Numbered from the stretch's first letter, positions 37,074 to 47,923 are shown. The stretch is 64,000 nt of DNA from an uncultured Oligoflexia bacterium (GCA_913058265.1 CAJXPQ010000003.1:1-64000), one strand, 5' to 3'. Numbers and translations are program-made. The notes: generated from the sequence alone by a model not told the origin.

Positions 37074-37586
37074 ATGTCAGAAATTACACCCAAAAGAATT
37101 GAAAAGATAATCTATGTAATAAGAGGTCAAAAAGTGATGTTGGATAATGATTTAGCAGACTTATATGCTGTACTTACTAAAAACTTCAATAAGGCCGTTA
37201 AGCGAAATACTGATAGGTTTCCATCGGATTTTATGTTTCAGATTACTAAAGAGGAGTTTGAGGTTTTGAGGTTCCAAATTGGAACCTCAAATGGAAAGGG
37301 AAGTGGGGGAAGGAGGTATTTACCTTACGTCTTTACTGAGCCTGGGATCGCTATGTTATCAAGTGTTTTGAATGGCCCTCAATCTATTCAGGTGAATATA
37401 TCAATAATGAGGACATTTATTAAAATGAGACATTTACTAGCATCGGAAGAATCACTAACTGATAGAATTGAGGAATTAGAGAAAGGAAGTGATAAGCTCT
37501 TTCGTATAGTGTTTGAAAGATTAGATAATGTAGAGAAAAAGGTCCCTCTCTTACCAAAAGATCGTAATAAAATTGGGCTAAAGTAG
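37074..37586 (+). CDS. ORF6N-domain protein, copy 1
   Basis: 170 residues. The N-terminal ORF6N domain (IYVIRGQKVMLDNDLADLY, then NKAVKRNTDRFPSDFMFQ and FTEPGIAMLSSVL) is a KilA-N-related domain common in phages and mobile elements, presumed to bind DNA. The C-terminus is a short coiled coil ending LLPKDRNKIGLK. CGGAGGA precedes the ATG. Copy 2 lies 778 bp downstream with similar flanks, so gene and flanks were duplicated together. Confidence 0.85.
   Translation: MSEITPKRIEKIIYVIRGQKVMLDNDLADLYAVLTKNFNKAVKRNTDRFPSDFMFQITKEEFEVLRFQIGTSNGKGSGGRRYLPYVFTEPGIAMLSSVLNGPQSIQVNISIMRTFIKMRHLLASEESLTDRIEELEKGSDKLFRIVFERLDNVEKKVPLLPKDRNKIGLK
37265..37291 (+). repeat. Perfect palindrome inside ORF6N copy 1
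   Basis: TTTGAGGTTCCAA, one central A, then TTGGAACCTCAAA: 13-bp arms with no mismatch, encoding the LRFQIGTSN part of the protein. The equivalent place in copy 2 (38046-38066) is also palindromic but with compensating changes. Confidence 0.75.
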
Positions 37587-37851
37587 GGGGTCGGTTTGTT
37601 ACGATTCGTATTCATGCGGACGTTCAAAAATTCTAGAATCATTGGCCTTGAAAGAAACTAGAAAAATATTTGTGTAATAAAACTCTTCCACCCTTCGTCG
37701 GGAAATGAGCTCCTGTGATCTAGAGTGAGTTGAAATGATCTTAGATAAGACCTTTTGTTTCAAAAATGAACGAATTCACAGCTTTGTCCCTCTAGTTATT
37801 GAAATGGCATTGGCTCTTTGATAATTCCTTAAGATTACTTGGAGGAAGCAA

Positions 37852-38361
37852 ATGTCTAAAATTACACCAAAAGAAATTGAGAAGATGATCTATGTTGTTA
37901 GGGGCCAAAAGGTGATGCTTGATAGTGATCTTGCAGAGCTATATTGTGTTTTAACGAAAAATCTTAACAAAGCCGTCAAGAGGAATAGTGAGAAGTTTCC
38001 AAGTGATTTCATGTTTAAATTGACTAAAAAAGAGTATGAGGATTTAAGGTTCCAGTTTGGAACCTTTAAAAATGCAACAAAAGGGCGAAAATATCTACCA
38101 TCCGTCTTTACCGAATATGGGGTAGTTGCACTCTCTGGGGTGTTAAGTAGTGATGTTGCAACGAGGGTGAATATATCAATTGTGAGAACCTTTATTAAGA
38201 TGAGACACTTACTAGCATCAGAGGAGTCTCTGACAGATCGAGTTGGAAAGCTTGAGCAGGGAACAGATAAGTTATTTCGAATTGTTTTTGAAAGACTTGA
38301 GAACATGGAGGAAAAATCTCCTCTTTTACCTAAAAAGCGGAATAGGATAGGTCTAAAGTAG
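37852..38361 (+). CDS. ORF6N-domain protein, copy 2
   Basis: 169 residues, clearly paralogous to copy 1 along the whole length (IYVVRGQKVMLDSDLAELY, NISIVRTFIKMRHLLASEE and C-terminal LLPKKRNRIGLK), with divergence centred on the middle region. TTGGAGGAAG precedes the ATG. The 5' flank (GGCTCTTTGATAAT) and 3' flank (TATTCATGC.GAC then ATTTCTAGAATC) match those of copy 1, supporting tandem duplication of a whole unit. Confidence 0.85.
   Translation: MSKITPKEIEKMIYVVRGQKVMLDSDLAELYCVLTKNLNKAVKRNSEKFPSDFMFKLTKKEYEDLRFQFGTFKNATKGRKYLPSVFTEYGVVALSGVLSSDVATRVNISIVRTFIKMRHLLASEESLTDRVGKLEQGTDKLFRIVFERLENMEEKSPLLPKKRNRIGLK
38046..38066 (+). repeat. Palindrome inside ORF6N copy 2
   Basis: AAGGTTCCA, centre GTT, then TGGAACCTT: 9-bp perfect arms at the same codons as the copy 1 palindrome. 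Where copy 1 has G paired with C, copy 2 has A paired with T. Confidence 0.7.
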
Positions 38362-39657: not shown

Positions 39658-40314
39658 ATGGCCAGTAATGAGACAGATTTTAAGACCCGATTTGAGGTCA
39701 AACGTTGGACTCAAACATTCATACTTTATATTAGAGCCAACAATAATAAGAACAAAGAGCTTGGTCAGGTGATTGGCGTCACAGAAAGAACTATTAGCGA
39801 ATGGAATAATCCCAAATATGCAGACATAAAAGATGGGGATAAATTCAAAATTCCTTCGAAGAGTAATTTTTTAAAACTTGCAATGATACGCTTACAGTTT
39901 GACTACTTGAAGGAGCAAAAAAGTTTCGATAAGGGTTCTTTGCTGGCCATGTCTTCTATGCCTGTATTGGGTGGATTAGTAGGAGCGGGAGCTGCTGCTT
40001 TAGGAGTAGGTGCGACAGGGGCAACTATAGCAAGTTTGTCTGGGGCAGCAGCTGTAAATGCTACCGTCGCAGCTCTAGGGGGACTGGCACTCTTTAATCC
40101 AATTGTCCTCGGAATTATAGGTAGTGCAATTGCTTTGAAAGTTGTTGATGCTCGTAAAAAAGATAATAGAGAGGACTTGATGTCTTTGAGTGAATACCTA
40201 GTTGATCATATGGCCGCGAAGTTTATCGGTGGTAATGCCTCTTGGGATGAAATCATCGAGTTCATCAACGAGTTCGACTCATCTTTTGATTTCTCGAAAG
40301 ATACTTATAAATAA
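39658..40314 (+). CDS. HTH protein with Gly/Ala-rich membrane segment
   Basis: 218 residues. The N-terminal part has a helix-turn-helix-like stretch (NKELGQVIGVTERTISEWNN). Residues of about 100-160 are a Gly/Ala-rich hydrophobic hairpin (GATGATIASLSGAAAVNATV then ALGGLALFNPIVLGIIGSAI). The tail is soluble and acidic. The combination of a DNA-binding-like head and membrane hairpin is unusual. AGAAGG precedes the ATG; the nuclease-like gene follows after 9 nt. Confidence 0.6.
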   Translation: MASNETDFKTRFEVKRWTQTFILYIRANNNKNKELGQVIGVTERTISEWNNPKYADIKDGDKFKIPSKSNFLKLAMIRLQFDYLKEQKSFDKGSLLAMSSMPVLGGLVGAGAAALGVGATGATIASLSGAAAVNATVAALGGLALFNPIVLGIIGSAIALKVVDARKKDNREDLMSLSEYLVDHMAAKFIGGNASWDEIIEFINEFDSSFDFSKDTYK

Positions 40315-40323
40315 GGAATAATC

Positions 40324-40890
40324 ATGGACCTATATAGTTACACGAAGACATTTTATACGGATCGTATTGACGGCCTACCTGGTGAACACCATTTTGTGTG
40401 TGCATTTGTTATTCCCCTTATGCAAACTAAACTTGGAGATAATTGGTGGCCTGAATATATTAACCCTGATGGGATGAAGTCAGGTATGAAAATATACGGT
40501 GATATTATTTGGAAAGAGAAAAAAACATGGAAATCGATTGAGGTTAAGTATGGAAACTCATATTGCACAGAGAATCAAAAGATTATCTTTTTCGGTACAA
40601 ATAATGAATTACCCCCGCCTCCTGGAGTCTTTGTTTTTTATGATGGTGTGACGTTATTGGTTTGTGATCTCAAGGCATACCGTTATGCTGAGGAAAATAT
40701 TGGTAATGTACCTAAAGGATTGGGGAATAAGAAAAGACCCTCTAAGATGGGGGCGATCTTAGCAGATCAGAAAAAAAGAAAGTTCAACTTTCATTGGTTC
40801 AGAGCAACTGATGAAAAGTTTTCGAATATGGACTCTGAGCTTAAAGAATATGATGAATCTCAATTACGAACTTTCCTTCTTCAAAAATGA
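40324..40890 (+). CDS. PD-(D/E)xK nuclease-like protein
   Basis: 188 residues, soluble. IYGDIIWKEKKTWKSIEVKYG gives Asp followed after about 14 residues by Glu-Val-Lys, the D...ExK arrangement of the restriction-endonuclease fold. An upstream Glu (GEHHFVCAFVIP) could be the helix-1 acid. No sequence family is recognised. Together with the upstream HTH/membrane gene it could act as a toxin or nuclease effector; that role is inference. Confidence 0.5.
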   Translation: MDLYSYTKTFYTDRIDGLPGEHHFVCAFVIPLMQTKLGDNWWPEYINPDGMKSGMKIYGDIIWKEKKTWKSIEVKYGNSYCTENQKIIFFGTNNELPPPPGVFVFYDGVTLLVCDLKAYRYAEENIGNVPKGLGNKKRPSKMGAILADQKKRKFNFHWFRATDEKFSNMDSELKEYDESQLRTFLLQK

Positions 40891-40971
40891 AAAAATGATC
40901 TATATTATTAGAGGTCAGAAAGTCATGCTTGATAGCGAGTCGAACGCGATTTATTTGCAGCCCCTCCACCA
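40889..40971 (+). pseudogene. N-terminal ORF6N fragment plus array core
   Basis: Codons from 40889 read EKMIYIIRGQKVMLDSE, nearly identical to the ORF6N N-terminus of copies 1 and 2, then homology stops. Shortly after comes CCCCTCCACCA (40961-40971), the array core. The overlapping 69-residue frame is not considered a gene. Confidence 0.7.
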
Positions 40972-41123
40972 TCAGTTGGAAAAAATTGGGGATAATAAAT
41001 TAATGACTAGTTACAAGTAATTTCTTGTATTTTGTTAACACCAACTTACTCAAGTTTAATTTTCTAGACAGAGTTTTCTCAACTAGGGAGAATTATAGCT
41101 ATACTTTGGTCATGGAGGATTAA

Positions 41124-42008
41124 GTGTTTAGAAGTATCTTAATAGTTTTGGTTGTGCTTTCCGTGTCATCAGTTTTTGCATGTACTATAGATGGTACTAA
41201 GGGGATTGTTGAAGACAATAATTTATGGATTAGTCCTAATGCTAAAAATGTTAGTAAAATTGATGAAGTTGAATTTAATAGAGTTATCGATAAAGTCGTA
41301 AAAGTTTATGAACCTATCATTGTAGCCGAGGGTGTTAAACTTAAGGTCGAAAGAAAATGGTCTGATGGAACTGTTAATGCCTTTGCTTCTAGAAAATGGG
41401 GGAAGTGGGTTATTAGTATGTTTGGTGGGTTGGCAAGACATGAGGCTATTACGGCAGATGGTTTTACATTAGTTGTTTGTCATGAAATCGGTCATCATAT
41501 TGGTGGCGCTCCTAAAAAAACAAAAAGTATGGGACGCAATGGAACTCGTAAAAGATGGGCCACTAATGAAGGGCAAGCAGATTATTGGGCGACGTTAAAG
41601 TGTTTAAGAAAAGTTTGGCAAGGTGATAATCACGCCAATATTCTTGCTGAAATGGAAGTGCCGGAAGTTGTATCTAAAAAATGTGAATCTCAGTTTTCAG
41701 GTACTGAACAGAGACTACTTTGCCAACGTAGTGCTATCGCTGGTTTAAGTGTGGCAAAATTATTTCAAACTTTAAGAAAAGAGCCTAAAGCTCCAGATTT
41801 TAAAACACCAGATACAAATATTGTGGCCAAAAATTATCATAACCATCCAGCAACTCAATGTCGTCTCGACTCTTATTATCATGGAGCATTATGTAGTGTT
41901 TCAGAGTTCAGTGATGTAGATCAAGAAGATGCCATGGCCGGAAATTGTAATAGAGCTGATGGAGAGATAATTGGGGGTAGGCCGCTTTGTTGGTTTAAGC
42001 CTGAATAA
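41124..42008 (+). CDS. Secreted HExxH zinc metallopeptidase
   Basis: 294 residues from GTG 41124, preceded by GGAGG. Signal peptide (ILIVLVVLSVSSVFAC) with a Cys just after the likely cleavage site, so it may be lipidated or disulfide-bonded. VVCHEIGHHIGG provides the zinc-binding HExxH, and NEGQADYWA about 40 residues later a third Glu ligand. Eight or more cysteines in the C-terminal half suggest disulfides. Probably an exported peptidase, resembling the fragment at 9950. Confidence 0.75.
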   Translation: MFRSILIVLVVLSVSSVFACTIDGTKGIVEDNNLWISPNAKNVSKIDEVEFNRVIDKVVKVYEPIIVAEGVKLKVERKWSDGTVNAFASRKWGKWVISMFGGLARHEAITADGFTLVVCHEIGHHIGGAPKKTKSMGRNGTRKRWATNEGQADYWATLKCLRKVWQGDNHANILAEMEVPEVVSKKCESQFSGTEQRLLCQRSAIAGLSVAKLFQTLRKEPKAPDFKTPDTNIVAKNYHNHPATQCRLDSYYHGALCSVSEFSDVDQEDAMAGNCNRADGEIIGGRPLCWFKPE

Positions 42009-42163: not shown

Positions 42164-42781
42164 ATGGAAGAAAAACTCTTAAACACTCAAAGTAACTATC
42201 TTACAGCGGAATATCTTCAGGCCCTCTATAGCTCACTCGAGATGCCTAAAAATAAGATCGCGAACCTAGTAAAAAAGGGGGAGCTGGTACCTGTTCGGCG
42301 GGGTCTTTATTTGCACGGAAAACCTTATGGCCGTCAGTACTCCAAGGCGGTTCTATCTGGCATGATTTATGGACCTTCGGCCATATCATTTGAATACGCT
42401 CTTTCTCACCATGGACTAATTCCAGAGAGAGTAGAGGTCGTCACCTGTCTTTGTTTTAAAAGAGATAAGAGTTTTGAAACATCAGTGGGAAGCTTTCACT
42501 ATAAGTACATCTCAAAAGAACTCTATCCTGAGGGCCTTGAGTTTTACCAAACAGAACTTGGAAATTATTTTATGGCATCGGCTGAGAAGGCACTTTGTGA
42601 TATGGCTTACTTCCAAACAATTACTTCGGTTGATGCTGCACGGGTTTATTTATTTGAATCCCTGCGTGTAGATAGAGATGAAATTAAGAAGCTAAATGTA
42701 GAGAAGTTACTCTTGTTAGAAAAATGTTATAAGCGTAAAAGCGTAGTATTTGTGGTGGATGCTATAAGGAGCGAGATATGA
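42164..42781 (+). CDS. abiEi: AbiEi-type antitoxin
   Basis: 205 residues. An N-terminal winged-helix region (LYSSLEMPKNKIANLVKKGELVPVRRGLY) and the C-terminal antitoxin part (SAEKALCDMAYF) match the AbiEi transcriptional regulators of type IV toxin-antitoxin systems. The stop overlaps the toxin start as ATGA. By eye this pair is somewhat richer in G and C than neighbouring island genes, suggesting a separate origin. Confidence 0.88.
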   Translation: MEEKLLNTQSNYLTAEYLQALYSSLEMPKNKIANLVKKGELVPVRRGLYLHGKPYGRQYSKAVLSGMIYGPSAISFEYALSHHGLIPERVEVVTCLCFKRDKSFETSVGSFHYKYISKELYPEGLEFYQTELGNYFMASAEKALCDMAYFQTITSVDAARVYLFESLRVDRDEIKKLNVEKLLLLEKCYKRKSVVFVVDAIRSEI

Positions 42782-43632
42782 GCCCGGCCATATTGCAGAT
42801 GTTAGAGCCTTACGAGTGTAGAACTCCTGAAGATTATAAAAACGCATTGAAAGAGATTATGCAAGAGGTGGCCCTCTTAGGGCTTTACCGCCAAAAGTTT
42901 TTTGATAAGGCTGCATTCTATGGAGGCACGGCCCTTAGGATTGCCCATAAGATTCAACGCTTTTCTGAGGATATGGATTTTACGCTCTTAAGAGCAAATA
43001 ATAATTTTGATTTATCCGTTTACCTCAAAGGTATTGAGCAAGAATTTGCAGCCTTCGGTTTAGGACTTACCACCAAAAAGAATATAAAAAATGTGGAGAC
43101 CTCTGTGGATTCGGCTTTTCTTAAGGCCAATACCCTAGAGTATCTTCTGATGATCGATGGTCTAACTAACCCTGGCAGCGGCACCAATAAAAATGAGATA
43201 ATAAAAATTAAGCTTGAAATTGATACCAGCCCATCTATGCCAATGGGAGAGTTAGAGACACTTTTTCTCACTCTTCCCATCCCCTTTAGTTACCAAGTCC
43301 TAAGCCTGCCCTCCCTTTTTGGAGGAAAACTTCACGCCCTCTTATGCCGTCAGTATAAAAGTGGCCGAGTTAAAGGCAGGGATTATTACGACTTCATCTG
43401 GTACAGAACTAAAAAAGTTTCCCCAGACCTAGCATACCTCAAAGGTAAGCTCTGCGAATCAGGGCACTGGGATATAAAAAAAGATTTCGGTGCAGCTGAA
43501 CTCAAAATCATGCTCGAGCAAAAATTTGAAACGACCGACTGGGAAAGTGCCAAAAAAGATGTTGCACCCTTTATAAAGGATCAAGCCGAACTTGACCTTT
43601 GGTCTACCGCCTTTTTTAAATCACTTATTTGA
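42778..43632 (+). CDS. abiEii: AbiEii-type nucleotidyltransferase toxin
   Basis: 284 residues. FYGGTALRIAH with RFSEDMDFTL carries the nucleotidyltransferase GG(S/T)...DxD motif of AbiEii/AbiGii toxins; LHALLCRQYKSGRVKGRDYYDFIWY is the second conserved block. AbiE systems abort phage infection by toxin activity held in check by AbiEi. Overlaps the antitoxin gene by 4 nt. Confidence 0.9.
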   Translation: MSPAILQMLEPYECRTPEDYKNALKEIMQEVALLGLYRQKFFDKAAFYGGTALRIAHKIQRFSEDMDFTLLRANNNFDLSVYLKGIEQEFAAFGLGLTTKKNIKNVETSVDSAFLKANTLEYLLMIDGLTNPGSGTNKNEIIKIKLEIDTSPSMPMGELETLFLTLPIPFSYQVLSLPSLFGGKLHALLCRQYKSGRVKGRDYYDFIWYRTKKVSPDLAYLKGKLCESGHWDIKKDFGAAELKIMLEQKFETTDWESAKKDVAPFIKDQAELDLWSTAFFKSLI

Positions 43633-43740
43633 TTAACTTATATTAAGCGTTTCCCTGAAGATTTTATGTTTCAGCTAAATAAGTTAGAAGTAGGATCGCC
43701 GACACTACCTAAAGAGCGTAATAAGATAGGATTTAAATGA
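43633..43740 (+). pseudogene. C-terminal ORF6N fragment
   Basis: The frame reads KRFPEDFMFQLNK and then jumps to LPKERNKIGFK before TGA, i.e. the middle of the ORF6N protein joined to its last residues with the intervening part deleted. With the N-terminal fragment at 40889 it brackets the metallopeptidase and AbiE genes. Confidence 0.7.
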
Positions 43741-43768
43741 GTGACACTATCTGACCGACTCACCTGAG
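43741..43768 (+). promoter_or_regulatory. Putative WYL-regulator site A, upstream of the AAA+ operon
   Basis: GTGACACTATCTGACCGACT followed by CACCTGAG. It matches site B (47697-47724) at 19 of 28 ungapped positions, with CCGACTCA identical. Its start lies 62 nt before the ATPase ATG; site B lies 65 nt before the small ORF ATG. TATCT and AGATA flank the centre as a loose dyad. Confidence 0.5.
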
Positions 43769-43802
43769 ATACTTCATCTGTACTAATATTACAGAGGAGG
43801 AC

Positions 43803-45209
43803 ATGATTATAAATACCTACGACGAAAACAAGTTTCCCATAGTGACAGCGAATCTGACAAAGAACAAAGTCTTAGAAAATCTATTGAATAATTTTAATAC
43901 ACCGGAAGAAAAGGAGTTGATTATTGATCTCATCAATAGCATTCCATCGGAAATTATTGAGTATGAATACAATCTAAATTCAACAAAGGCAGATCTTAGG
44001 TATTTTTTCAAAGAGTATATCACTGAGACAGCGGCTTTCATGTTGTATGCCTATGTAAATGCAAAAGATAAGGATGTGTCTTGGGATAAGGCGTCACCAT
44101 ATTCGGTACTTCAAAGTTGTGAGGACTATGATTTAGAGCTCATAGGTCTCGAGATTGATGAAGAGGTTGAGGGATATGAAATTTACACAAGAAGTGAGAT
44201 AACTGATATCTTTGATCTATTGTGCTCTATAAGTTTTAAAGAGTTAATTGTATCTGAGACATTTCTAGATTTATTAGAAGAGCGCTTTGATAACTATAAA
44301 GAGATCATACAAAAATACGGAGAAATGAATAATCCCTTCAAAAAATATGCGGATGAATGCATAGAGATTGGTATTGATAGCTCTGCTGTTGAAAAGTATA
44401 AGGAATTAGCGGGAATCGTAAGTCTTCCTGTAAAATCATACAATATTGATTATAAATTTGTAATCAAAGAGCAAGATAGAATTGAAAATCCACATTATGA
44501 TGAAAAGTATATTCGTTGTGAAGATGGCATCAAAGACATTCAAAGTGCTGTTAAGAACTATGATGTAAATTCAAATACAAAACTATCTGTGATGATCATG
44601 GGAGTTCCTGGAAGTGGAAAATCCGAATATGCCATAAATATGTTTCCAAAGTTCATTAGGATTACTCCAGGTGTGCTTTTGAGTAAGTGGATCGGAGAAG
44701 CTGAGAAAACTCTTCGAAACACGTTCTTATATGCCGAGAAGATGCAAATCCCAATTATTATTGATGAGCTTGATGGAATATTAGTCTCTAGAGAGTCAGG
44801 TGATCACCATACTAAATCAGTGACTGTAGAATTCTTAACGATCCTTGATAGCTATAGAGGAATACTTATAAGTACCACAAATTTCTTTGACGAGATGGAT
44901 ATAGCCTTTTCTAGAAGGTTTACTTACAAGAAAGTATTTGAACAAATGTCGAAGGATGTCATAGGAGACTCTTGTATCAATTATTTCAAAGATAAGATTT
45001 TAGGTTTTGATGAGAAGGCGCTAAACAAAGCGATTCGAAGTATTTCAAAGTTATGCCTTGGTGACTTAAGAGTGGTTTATGACCAACTTGAACTCGAGAG
45101 ATCCAAACTCAGTGTTGAAGATTTGTCTCAAAGGCTAAGACGAGAAGTTGGATTTAGAAGTAACAAGGTAATAACAAATCAAAGATCACAGGTCGGTCTT
45201 TGTCGATAA
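43803..45209 (+). CDS. AAA+ ATPase of a WYL-associated module
   Basis: 468 residues, preceded by GAGGAGG. The first about 250 residues are helical and match no known domain. The AAA+ module follows: Walker A GVPGSGKS (about 267-274), KWIGEAEKTLRN, Walker B IIIDELD (about 318-324), sensor-1 Asn in ISTTNF (about 360) and Arg residues in FSRRF (371-372). It resembles the classical AAA (spastin/VPS4-like) clade seen in phage and bacterial remodelers. Coupled to the next gene. The N-terminal region may recognise the target. Confidence 0.75.
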   Translation: MIINTYDENKFPIVTANLTKNKVLENLLNNFNTPEEKELIIDLINSIPSEIIEYEYNLNSTKADLRYFFKEYITETAAFMLYAYVNAKDKDVSWDKASPYSVLQSCEDYDLELIGLEIDEEVEGYEIYTRSEITDIFDLLCSISFKELIVSETFLDLLEERFDNYKEIIQKYGEMNNPFKKYADECIEIGIDSSAVEKYKELAGIVSLPVKSYNIDYKFVIKEQDRIENPHYDEKYIRCEDGIKDIQSAVKNYDVNSNTKLSVMIMGVPGSGKSEYAINMFPKFIRITPGVLLSKWIGEAEKTLRNTFLYAEKMQIPIIIDELDGILVSRESGDHHTKSVTVEFLTILDSYRGILISTTNFFDEMDIAFSRRFTYKKVFEQMSKDVIGDSCINYFKDKILGFDEKALNKAIRSISKLCLGDLRVVYDQLELERSKLSVEDLSQRLRREVGFRSNKVITNQRSQVGLCR

Positions 45210-45238
45210 TAGTATCAAAGGTAATTGGGGAAGATAAA

Positions 45239-46666
45239 ATGAAAAATGCAACAACTCATAATTTTGATGATTTCTTTTATGACAAGGATAATGAATTAAC
45301 GGTTCAGGTCTGTAAGGATTTTGTTTCTACCAATTCACAATCTACATCTGTTCTCTATATTAGTGGAGAGTCTGGTCTTGGTAAGTCTCATTTAGGTGAA
45401 GCCATTCAGACTGAGGCAGAGCTAAAAGAATTAAGATGTATATTTATAAGTACTAATGAGTTTGTTTCTGAAATGATTAAGGCCATTCAAAATAATGTTT
45501 CGGAAGATTTTCGTGAGAAGTATACCAATGGATTAGATTTACTAATTATTGATGATCTGCAAGATCTCCGGAGTAAGTCGAGAACACAGAATGAGTTTCT
45601 CACAATTTTAAATTTTGCTGCATCCGGAAATATGAAACTTGTAGTATTTGCAGATGCTAAAATTAGTAAACTCTATGGTATGGAAAAAAGCATTCTCTCC
45701 AAGCTGCATAACTCATTACAACTAAATCTCAAACGTCCTAGTAAGAGCGAGATTGAAAGGTATTCAACTCATTACTTAGATAATAGGGATGTGAGCTATG
45801 AGCCTGGTATCATCAGTGTTATTTCTGGTGAGTATATAGGGAATTTCAATGAACTCTTAGGTTACTTAAAGAAGCTTGCACTATACTCATCACCTAAAAA
45901 TAAGATTTCAGTCGACATCGCCAAAGAAGTCATAAGTGAGTTGAGTGTTGAGGGAAAAGAATTTAAAGGCTTCACATCTATAAACCGCACACTAAAGAAT
46001 TGTATGGAGAAGTATCAGGATAGATTCTGTATCGAAACAGGAATTAAGTCCTTAGATGAGTTTATCCATGGTGTTGATAAAGGTGAGCTTGTTACATTCA
46101 TTAATAATGCCAATATGGATATGGGAAAATTCTTCATGGAGATCACTCTTAATATGGTGAAGAATAATGGAGTTTCGATTGCCTTCTTCTCCCTTGGGAC
46201 TAGCGCTCAAGAATTAACTCAATATGCTGTAGAACTTGAGACAGGTATTCCAAGTGAGAACTTGAAGGAAAGAAATCTTACTGATGAAAATATCGAAGAC
46301 CTTGAAAGGGCGGTACAAAACATAGGGCGATATTCAATATATCTTAATGATGATGAAAACTTAAAACTTAATACTATCACTGATGTTTTAGAAAATATTA
46401 AAAATGACTGTGATCTCAAGGTTGTGTTTATTGATGACCTAGCACGAGTTGAAGAGATTGACTATCATTTAATCCGAAAGTTGAGTCGTACTTGTAAAAG
46501 ACTTGGGGGTGCACTTGTAACAGCAGTCAGTAATGACTTAGAGATTTTATCTAACGCAAGTAAGGTTATTCGTATTGAGCATAAAAATGAAGCGTCAAAA
46601 CTTTTTGAAGTAATACAAAATAGTAGAGGTAAAAAAGGAACTTTTGATTTAGTTCGCTTTTACTAG
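45239..46666 (+). CDS. DnaA-like AAA+ fused to degenerate DnaB-like domain
   Basis: 475 residues from ATG 45239 (GGGGAAGA upstream; a TTG at 45200 overlaps the previous gene). Residues 1 to about 230 look like the DnaA AAA+ core: GESGLGKSHL (43-52) and LDLLIIDDLQDL (99-110). Residues of about 260-475 resemble the DnaB/RecA-type C-terminal helicase domain: TGIKSLDEFIHGVDKGELV, IAFFSLGTSAQEL, VVFIDDLARVEE and a final NSRGKKGTFDLVRFY. The second P-loop is NMDMGKF, lacking the normal GKT/S, so it may not hydrolyse ATP. DnaA's DNA-binding domain is absent. Confidence 0.7.
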   Translation: MKNATTHNFDDFFYDKDNELTVQVCKDFVSTNSQSTSVLYISGESGLGKSHLGEAIQTEAELKELRCIFISTNEFVSEMIKAIQNNVSEDFREKYTNGLDLLIIDDLQDLRSKSRTQNEFLTILNFAASGNMKLVVFADAKISKLYGMEKSILSKLHNSLQLNLKRPSKSEIERYSTHYLDNRDVSYEPGIISVISGEYIGNFNELLGYLKKLALYSSPKNKISVDIAKEVISELSVEGKEFKGFTSINRTLKNCMEKYQDRFCIETGIKSLDEFIHGVDKGELVTFINNANMDMGKFFMEITLNMVKNNGVSIAFFSLGTSAQELTQYAVELETGIPSENLKERNLTDENIEDLERAVQNIGRYSIYLNDDENLKLNTITDVLENIKNDCDLKVVFIDDLARVEEIDYHLIRKLSRTCKRLGGALVTAVSNDLEILSNASKVIRIEHKNEASKLFEVIQNSRGKKGTFDLVRFY

Positions 46667-47625
46667 GAAACTTTTTTGAGACCAGAGTTCCATATTTCTT
46701 CAACGGAACTTTGGATCTCCTTTGGAGTCACTGATGTCAGGTGTCCGCCAAACGAGGCAAGTAGTCTTGAAAGTTCACTGCTGACTGTACACTCTAGGTG
46801 TATTTCATAACTTGTTTCTGAGTGTTTTATAACTTCCTGACTCTTATGAATGATTTTTTCCTCAAAGTAGGTACCAAGAACTTCATCACACATTATTGTG
46901 ATCCGTTCACTTTCATCCTTTGTGCCACCAAAACCACCGAGTCCGCTCTCAAGATTGAACTCTTCTTGGTTTGGAATATCACAATCGATGTCAGTGATAT
47001 TAATATATTTTAATCTAGTAATTCTTATTTTTTTTAACTTATCATCCTTTAGATCTTTAACTAATAGATAAGGAGTTCCAGATGTTAATATAAAAACCAG
47101 TGGTGCAAACTGCCTTAATTGCTCATTGTAAGCAGCATTCTTATAAGGTGAATGATTTTGACAGGTAATGACTTTCTTTGTTCTCATCGCTTTTAAGATT
47201 TTATTAAAATCAGTATGATCGGTAGTATTAGGTTTCCCAGACATACTATAATCATAATAGTAATTCTTCTTTTGTTTTATTAGCTTCTGATTAGTCTTTT
47301 CTTTAAGATTATTTAGAATGGCATTCTCTGCAGAAGTCGCATGCTCGTAGAAATAACTATGAGAAGTATGTTTTAAGTTATTGAGCGCCATAAGAAGAAC
47401 CTCAAGAGTGTCTTCATTTAGCTTTAACTTATGCTCCAATTCATAGTCAGGGGAGATAAAGTATTTTGCTGGATAGTCATCAGTCTCAACCAGGCCGCGA
47501 CCATTCGAGAGCTCTTCTATATCCCGTCTTACCGTTCTCGTATCAACGTCGATGTCATTTGATAGTAGTTTCTTGCGAATCTCTGTGATGGAAATAGCGC
47601 TCATATCACTTAGGCCCCTAAGCAT
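46663..47625 (-). CDS. WYL-domain transcriptional regulator
   Basis: 320 residues. N-terminal winged helix-turn-helix (SITEIRKKLLSNDIDVDTRTVRRDIEEL), then a WYL-like ligand domain (KKVITCQNHSPY ... LRQFAPLVFILTSGTPYLLVKD ... IRITRLKYINITD) and a WCX-like C-terminus. The HTH homology continues upstream of ATG 47625 (LSKEKRQEYIYQ) without a stop for about 40 nt, so initiation may be at a non-ATG codon. Its 3' end overlaps the convergent operon by 4 nt. WYL proteins often regulate defence loci. Confidence 0.8.
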   Translation of the reverse strand: MLRGLSDMSAISITEIRKKLLSNDIDVDTRTVRRDIEELSNGRGLVETDDYPAKYFISPDYELEHKLKLNEDTLEVLLMALNNLKHTSHSYFYEHATSAENAILNNLKEKTNQKLIKQKKNYYYDYSMSGKPNTTDHTDFNKILKAMRTKKVITCQNHSPYKNAAYNEQLRQFAPLVFILTSGTPYLLVKDLKDDKLKKIRITRLKYINITDIDCDIPNQEEFNLESGLGGFGGTKDESERITIMCDEVLGTYFEEKIIHKSQEVIKHSETSYEIHLECTVSSELSRLLASFGGHLTSVTPKEIQSSVEEIWNSGLKKVS

Positions 47626-47696
47626 CTGATAGATATATTCTTGTCGCTTTTCTTTACTCAGCTTAATTATTTCGGGTACTTACCTTTGTTTTAACA

Positions 47697-47724
47697 GTGT
47701 CATAGTATGTCCGACTCATCGGCT
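47697..47724 (+). promoter_or_regulatory. Putative WYL-regulator site B
   Basis: GTGTCATAGTATGTCCGACT followed by CATCGGCT, matching site A in the same orientation. CCGA and TCGG form a short perfect dyad around CTCA. It lies between the divergent WYL gene and the small ORF at 47762, placed to control both. Confidence 0.5.
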
Positions 47725-47761
47725 AAAGTATTAATAACTTTTATTTTATCATTGGAGAACT

Positions 47762-47923
47762 ATGAAGACAGAACTAGAAATACGACTTAAGCAGGCCACT
47801 GGACTATTAGAAAGAATAAGTTCATTACCATTTATTTTTCCCTCACCATACGATCCAACTTTGGAGCAAGAAATTGGAGACTTCTTTGAATCAAGTTCAG
47901 AGTCAACTGCGGAAGAAGAGTAA
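47762..47923 (+). CDS. 53-codon ORF divergent from the WYL regulator
   Basis: ATG 47762 has GGAG 6 nt upstream. The product is acidic, begins MKTELEIRLKQATGLLERIS, contains the Pro-rich LPFIFPSPYDPT and ends SSSESTAEEE. No signal or membrane segment, no family recognised. The promoter region parallels that of the AAA+ operon (same motif at the same distance), which argues that it is a real, co-regulated component. Confidence 0.5.
   Translation: MKTELEIRLKQATGLLERISSLPFIFPSPYDPTLEQEIGDFFESSSESTAEEE

Follow-up and report, generated by a model that had tools for sequence, protein, structure and literature searches.

What could be the function of a protein that joins a DnaA-like part to a DnaB-like part in a single chain, when its gene lies between those of an AAA+ ATPase and a WYL regulator in a bacterium that most likely belongs to a group of bacterial predators? 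The locus raising this question lies in a 64-kb stretch of contig C3 of a 3.2-Mb genome, and this whole stretch is referred to here as the window. A preliminary description had placed three genes and a 53-codon ORF in an accessory island next to an AbiE system, and had argued from a shared upstream motif and tight gene overlaps that they form one regulated unit in the style of anti-phage or plasmid-interference systems, matching no system that could be named. Our analysis suggests that the locus is most likely a WYL-regulated AAA+ conflict cassette, with a fair chance that the DnaA-DnaB fusion is a new kind of effector. The features of the locus are as follows.

42164-43632, plus strand: AbiEi-AbiEii pair (PADLOC 1.4e-57 and 6.3e-99), genes overlapping
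43739-43765, minus strand: predicted WYL operator, second copy, ahead of the ATPase-fusion operon (core GTCA-GATAG-TGTC, 43743-43755)
43803-45209, plus strand: AAA+ ATPase, 468 aa (Pfam AAA 2e-13), with an AAA module at residues 263-376 and an orphan N-terminal region at residues 1-236
45239-46666, plus strand: fusion of DnaA domain III and DnaB RecA domain, 475 aa (Bac_DnaA and DnaB_C matches)
46663-47676, minus strand: WYL regulator, putative wHTH-WYL-WCX (PADLOC WYL 7.8e-19), with orthologues 35-47% identical
47695-47721, minus strand: predicted WYL operator, first copy, in the gap that separates the WYL gene from the small ORF (core GACA-TACTA-TGAC, 47699-47711)
47762-47923, plus strand: small ORF of 53 codons, an open frame with GGAG upstream; possible small protein

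The three genes, with their domain matches, and the 53-codon ORF are present as described, with open frames and codon statistics that resemble those of adjacent genes. The ATPase and fusion genes form a plus-strand operon on which the minus-strand WYL gene converges, the 3' ends overlapping by 4 bases, and the 53-codon ORF diverges from the WYL gene. The ATPase and fusion genes are 29 bases apart when the fusion starts at ATG 45239, which has GGGGAAG ahead of it, and they overlap only with a start at TTG 45200. Because the WYL gene is convergent and the small ORF divergent, the locus is a candidate regulon under WYL control rather than a single transcript. The small ORF has a Shine-Dalgarno-like GGAG and coding-like codons, its antisense frame scores almost equally, and a search for a homologue found none. 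A promoter scan of the locus did no better than on shuffled sequences.

No DNA match to 42164-47923 was found in three congeners (one of them very fragmented), and this stretch is therefore accessory, which together with the PADLOC match to the AbiE pair bears out the accessory island beside AbiE. The pair has the expected composition, with an AbiEi antitoxin gene overlapping an AbiEii nucleotidyltransferase gene; it has no strong WYL-type operator upstream and is probably separate from the ATPase-fusion/WYL module. The same island contains two ORF6N-like phage-type paralogues and a fragment of a third (37074-38361 and 40811-41020, by eye). A gene pair at 39658-40890, for which there is only a weak PDC-M09A match, encodes a 188-aa protein and a glycine-rich protein that is probably a membrane protein and has a helix-turn-helix-like N-terminal stretch. 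At 41124-42008 there is a metallopeptidase-like gene with several diverged copies in its own genome and in congeners.

Judging by its residues, the fusion appears to be a crippled mimic of replication proteins. Its reading frame is intact, open and codon-biased over the whole length. Residues 6-161 match Bac_DnaA (2.3e-29), and the first 240 residues correspond to DnaA domain III; residues 265-422 match DnaB_C (8.6e-22, positions 2-164 of the 255 in the model), and residues 265-475 correspond to the DnaB RecA domain. The match to the NCBIfam DnaA model reaches 1.1e-42, which is under the cut-off of that model. Within the DnaA half there is a weak match to Hda (1.6e-17), and the closest resemblance is to host DnaA, with approximately 33% identity to the DnaA of the same genome. 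This genome encodes a full-length DnaA (544-codon open frame, contig C14) and a full-length DnaB (466-codon open frame, contig C8), and thus the fusion is an extra. A tree of the DnaA half has an extreme branch, of 8.3 changes per column, and gives no usable position.

In a comparison with 24 host DnaAs of the class, both Walker motifs (A and B) and the region of the initiator-specific motif are retained in the DnaA half, whereas the arginines of the arginine finger, box VII and sensor 2 are gone, the equivalents of E. coli Arg285, Arg281 and Arg334 being K, S and N. In E. coli DnaA those arginines serve oligomerization, helicase loading or ATP hydrolysis (PMC5742627). The DnaA half probably still binds ATP, and it should neither hydrolyze ATP nor oligomerize normally. 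The DnaB half is recognizable as a DnaB RecA domain whose key catalytic residues are missing: GKT is replaced by GKF, SLE by SLG, SQ by SN and KNR by QNS, in an alignment that is off by one or two residues at the P-loop and for which no alternative Walker A exists. By the defining features of the two families, the fusion is neither a DnaA nor a DnaB. Its domain III is clearly recognizable, but DnaA domain I, the domain IV helix-turn-helix, the arginine finger and the sensor 2 arginine are absent; its RecA domain is clearly recognizable as well, but it has no DnaB N-terminal domain, has lost the ATPase-site motifs and shares one chain with the DnaA part.

The ATPase contains a classical AAA module (residues 263-376), in which the Walker A, Walker B and arginine residues are intact on inspection. 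The nearest PDB relatives of this module are VCP-like (2.2e-18), and the nearest PADLOC models are those of IetA (1.4e-13). We nevertheless rejected an assignment to IetA, given a score of 42.6 bits against an NCBIfam cut-off of 510 and the lack of IetS. The likeness to IetAS lies in the AAA module, whereas the N-terminal region differs, the partner is the DnaA-DnaB fusion, and there is no adjacent IetS subtilisin-like protease, the neighbors being the fusion, the WYL gene and AbiE. For the N-terminal residues 1-236, a search of 369 genomes of the phylum gave no relative, and a profile comparison of this region with the L041_185 family yielded nothing. We took a weak match to CRISPR_Cas9_WED in the ATPase (0.0024, under the cut-off) to be due to chance, and matches to mad8 to be P-loop cross-matches. 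Library searches revealed no recognizable effector domain (nuclease, NADase or membrane protein) in either the ATPase or the fusion.

The genes had also been reported to share an upstream motif. A 22-base pattern from the two window sites has perfect matches only at those two places in 3.23 Mb, a pattern that was derived from the same two sites it finds. Compared with each other alone, the two sites are not significantly similar (p about 0.1-0.2, over stretches of at least 22 bases), and we therefore dropped their similarity as evidence for a motif and used footprinting of orthologues instead. A perfect GACA-N5-TGTC, often preceded by CCGA, occurs in 10 of the 18 regions upstream of WYL orthologues, whereas 500 shuffled sets average 0.03 and never exceed 1. 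When the window is scored with an operator matrix built from 12 orthologue sites, with the window sites excluded, the 47695 site (17.0 bits) ranks first and the 43739 site (13.3 bits) second among 127,948 window positions; the third-ranked site (13.1 bits) lies within a gene elsewhere in the window. The 43739 site has the same placement relative to the ATPase start codon as the 47695 site has relative to the small ORF. The two window sites thus become significant because of the independent evidence from the WYL orthologues, and the shared motif is predicted to be the operator of the WYL protein, in two copies. On the strength of these sequence comparisons, control of the putative cassette by the WYL protein is well supported.

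The PADLOC WYL match covers residues 11-304 of the regulator, and the Pfam scores are 17.8 bits for WYL (cut-off 21.8) and 19.4 bits for WCX (cut-off 23.9). From ATG 47625 the gene occupies 46663-47625, to which an upstream extension must be added: alignment with orthologues indicates a protein approximately 15 residues longer, and a start at this codon, the sole in-frame ATG, drops approximately 15 residues of the winged helix. At the position of the orthologues' ATG start the window reads ATA (47668-47670), and the homologous reading frame begins there. Either the WYL gene uses a rare start codon or its start has been damaged; with ATA as its start codon, the regulator may be weakly made or damaged. 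Most of the named GTDB records for WYL orthologues carry the labels Bacteriovoracaceae, Halobacteriovoraceae or Bdellovibrionales, which makes membership of this predatory group most likely for the host. A pattern scan for the WYL family in viral contigs found nothing. No phmmer match to the regulator was found among PDB chains at E up to 0.1, in a set whose inclusion of BrxR and CapW is unconfirmed.

The arrangement resembles that of BrxR and CapW, the repressors of BREX and CBASS (PMC9122601; PMC9122588), in that a putative wHTH-WYL-WCX regulator is found at a defense-type locus. BrxR represses, and brxR and brxA are each preceded by a box of inverted repeats with a 5-base spacer (PMC9122601); in the window, too, inverted repeats with a 5-base spacer precede the regulator's own gene and the putative effector operon. 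The WYL protein of the window differs from BrxR and CapW in that the candidate genes under its control belong to neither BREX nor CBASS and in that its own gene has a probable non-ATG start. Because BrxR and CapW repress, we infer that it acts as a repressor and not as an activator.

As previously claimed, the combination of genes matches no named system in the libraries searched. No PADLOC system model is matched completely, the three proteins giving only weak IetA, mad8 and WYL-type matches, and we found no description of a DnaA-DnaB fusion in a defense system in the open-licence literature searched. The fusion is absent from all other genomes of the phylum that were searched (369), and pattern scans of GTDB and of viral contigs found nothing. 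With tblastn, plasmids and phages yielded DnaA, DnaB or AAA proteins solely as separate chains, with less than 80% of the query covered in every case, and no phage or plasmid in the searched collections carries the fusion. Since single-sequence pattern scans detect close relatives only, and metagenomes lay outside the scope of the searches, other copies of the fusion may exist. From these comparisons the module looks like an unrecorded anti-phage or anti-plasmid type.

The preliminary description had asked whether such genes co-occur, and at the level of domain families they do: lone DnaB_C, DnaA-like and IetA-like AAA+ proteins recur in other Bacteriovoracia, often near related WYL genes or other defense-type genes. 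The gene diverging from a WYL gene encodes a tandem AAA+ protein at L077, a BCS1-type AAA+ ATPase (Pfam) at L078 (558-1829) and an AAA protein that is BCS1-like by eye at L106 (366-1577). On a Desulfosarcina plasmid (L109, 3528-10153), it encodes a tandem AAA+ ATPase of the same group, and two unknown proteins come next, one of which has a weak PLD-like and ZacB match. At L080 the WYL gene is divergent from an operon encoding two members of an uncharacterized Cys-containing family, a PcfJ-like protein and a lone DnaB_C; at L085 it is followed by a lone DnaB_C, with dnd-type genes adjoining (by eye); at L079 it lies near a DnaA-like protein of 267 aa and a weakly AbiEii-like protein; and at L081 and L086 it adjoins AbiE-type pairs (by eye and by a weak match, respectively). 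Genome G102 has two such loci. The first (L041, 4924-11254) comprises five genes, encoding a DnaA-like protein of 283 aa, a second full DnaB, a tandem IetA-like AAA protein, a lone DnaB_C and an unknown protein of 185 aa, and is a candidate for a system in its own right; its DnaA-like protein is without the same three arginines as the fusion. In the second (L046, 4965-8089), the gene for an IetA-like AAA protein precedes that for a DnaB_C-AAA fusion; an ankyrin-repeat protein is encoded upstream, and a WYL-like gene is close by. The uncharacterized family is found both at L041 (4924-5481) and at L080 (3421-4074 and 5491-6021), with approximately 29% identity and conserved Cys and aromatic residues, and accompanies lone DnaB_C genes in two genomes.

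Among 126 genomes of the class there are four lone DnaB_C ORFs, requiring a near-full-domain match and excluding ORFs at contig edges, and three of these lie within 7.5 kb of a WYL homologue. By our estimate, approximately 25 WYL loci in approximately 0.4 Gb would give a chance expectation of about 0.001 per ORF; the proximity stems in part from the general clustering of defense genes. Most of the lone DnaB_C domains at related loci appear catalytically intact, and a dead helicase is therefore no general rule. The loci L041, L046, L080 and L085 resemble the module in their domain families and in being accessory or WYL-associated, and they differ from it in that the parts are separate genes or other fusions, such as DnaB_C-AAA.

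We hypothesize, at slightly less than an even chance, that the module is a WYL-repressed accessory conflict cassette that blocks the replication of invading genomes. Its accessory nature, the adjoining AbiE pair and the BrxR-like design with two operators support this reading, as do the residue losses in the fusion despite its open, codon-biased frame, the loss of the same arginines at L041, and the WYL homologues near three of the four lone DnaB_C genes. Against it, searches of the phylum turned up orthologues neither of the fusion nor of the ATPase N-terminus, most lone DnaB_C domains at related loci look intact, and the WYL gene has ATA in place of its ATG. The WYL protein would bind the two GACA-N5-TGTC-type operators, as the footprinting supports, and would thereby silence both the ATPase-fusion operon and its own gene, and perhaps the small ORF as well. 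Infection or stress would release this repression, and the released operon would yield the AAA+ ATPase, with its intact motifs, and a pseudo-initiator/pseudo-helicase. The fusion might then mimic a DnaA-DnaB loading complex and trap or poison helicase loading or helicase hexamers, with the ATPase as a putative motor that remodels the fusion, loads it or is triggered by it.

The closest rival to such interference with replication is that the fusion serves as bait, to be bound by phage proteins that commandeer the DnaA or DnaB of the host, their binding activating the ATPase or freeing a toxicity that leads to abortive infection. Dead copies of both replication proteins would be natural bait, and repression by WYL proteins is typically found at systems whose expression is costly (PMC9122588; PMC9122601), but neither protein has a recognizable effector domain, and we consider this explanation unlikely. 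It is also conceivable, as the preliminary description had suggested, that the locus is the replication module of a plasmid, phage or integrative element, now in decay or domesticated, and the fusion its evolutionary remnant. The DnaA-like and DnaB-like parts and the nearby ORF6N-like genes point in this direction, as do the second full DnaB and the DnaA-like gene at L041 and the PcfJ-like gene at L080. This origin fits less well because neither frame is broken, their codon bias is normal, the ATPase has retained its motifs and two operators have been kept. It is weakened further by the losses in the fusion, which include specifically catalytic and oligomerization residues, by the lack of a tRNA in the window and of any Rfam feature nearby, and by the absence of the fusion from the phages and plasmids searched, and we regard it as distinctly unlikely.

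That the DnaA half is closest to host DnaA and weakly matches Hda would agree with a role in host replication control, for example as an Hda-like or DnaA-modulating accessory factor during the predatory cycle; the absence of the fusion from congeners and from the other searched genomes of the phylum, and its place in a WYL/AbiE accessory island, make such a role very improbable. We likewise give little credence to a chance neighborhood in which AbiE, the WYL gene and the ATPase-fusion operon share one island but are independent of each other, and the WYL protein controls only itself. WYL orthologues do adjoin many different genes, and the ATPase operator is the weaker of the two and barely exceeds the next background site, yet it still ranks second in 64 kb, lies upstream of the operon and keeps the same placement relative to a start codon.

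Under the cassette reading, the module would work like a defense cassette controlled by BrxR or CapW and would fall outside BREX, CBASS and IetAS. The anti-phage or interference style that had been proposed is upheld as far as a WYL-controlled unit in a defense-type neighborhood is concerned, whereas an anti-phage function is putative. More tentatively, and with considerable doubt, we propose a new anti-phage or anti-plasmid class in which a dead fusion of DnaA domain III and DnaB RecA domain, copied from the host's initiation machinery, acts as a poison or decoy, driven by an AAA+ protein and switched by a WYL repressor; the Bacteriovoracia would then hold a wider family of replication mimics with exchangeable DnaA-, DnaB- and IetA-like parts. 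If this is true, imitating the complex that initiates replication would represent a distinct means of halting a virus, and the DnaA-DnaB fusion would offer a ready-made reagent for studies of how helicase loading can be blocked. The GACA-N5-TGTC element before this WYL family marks loci with AAA+, DnaB-like and AbiE-type genes and provides a handle for finding further cassettes in this predatory group.
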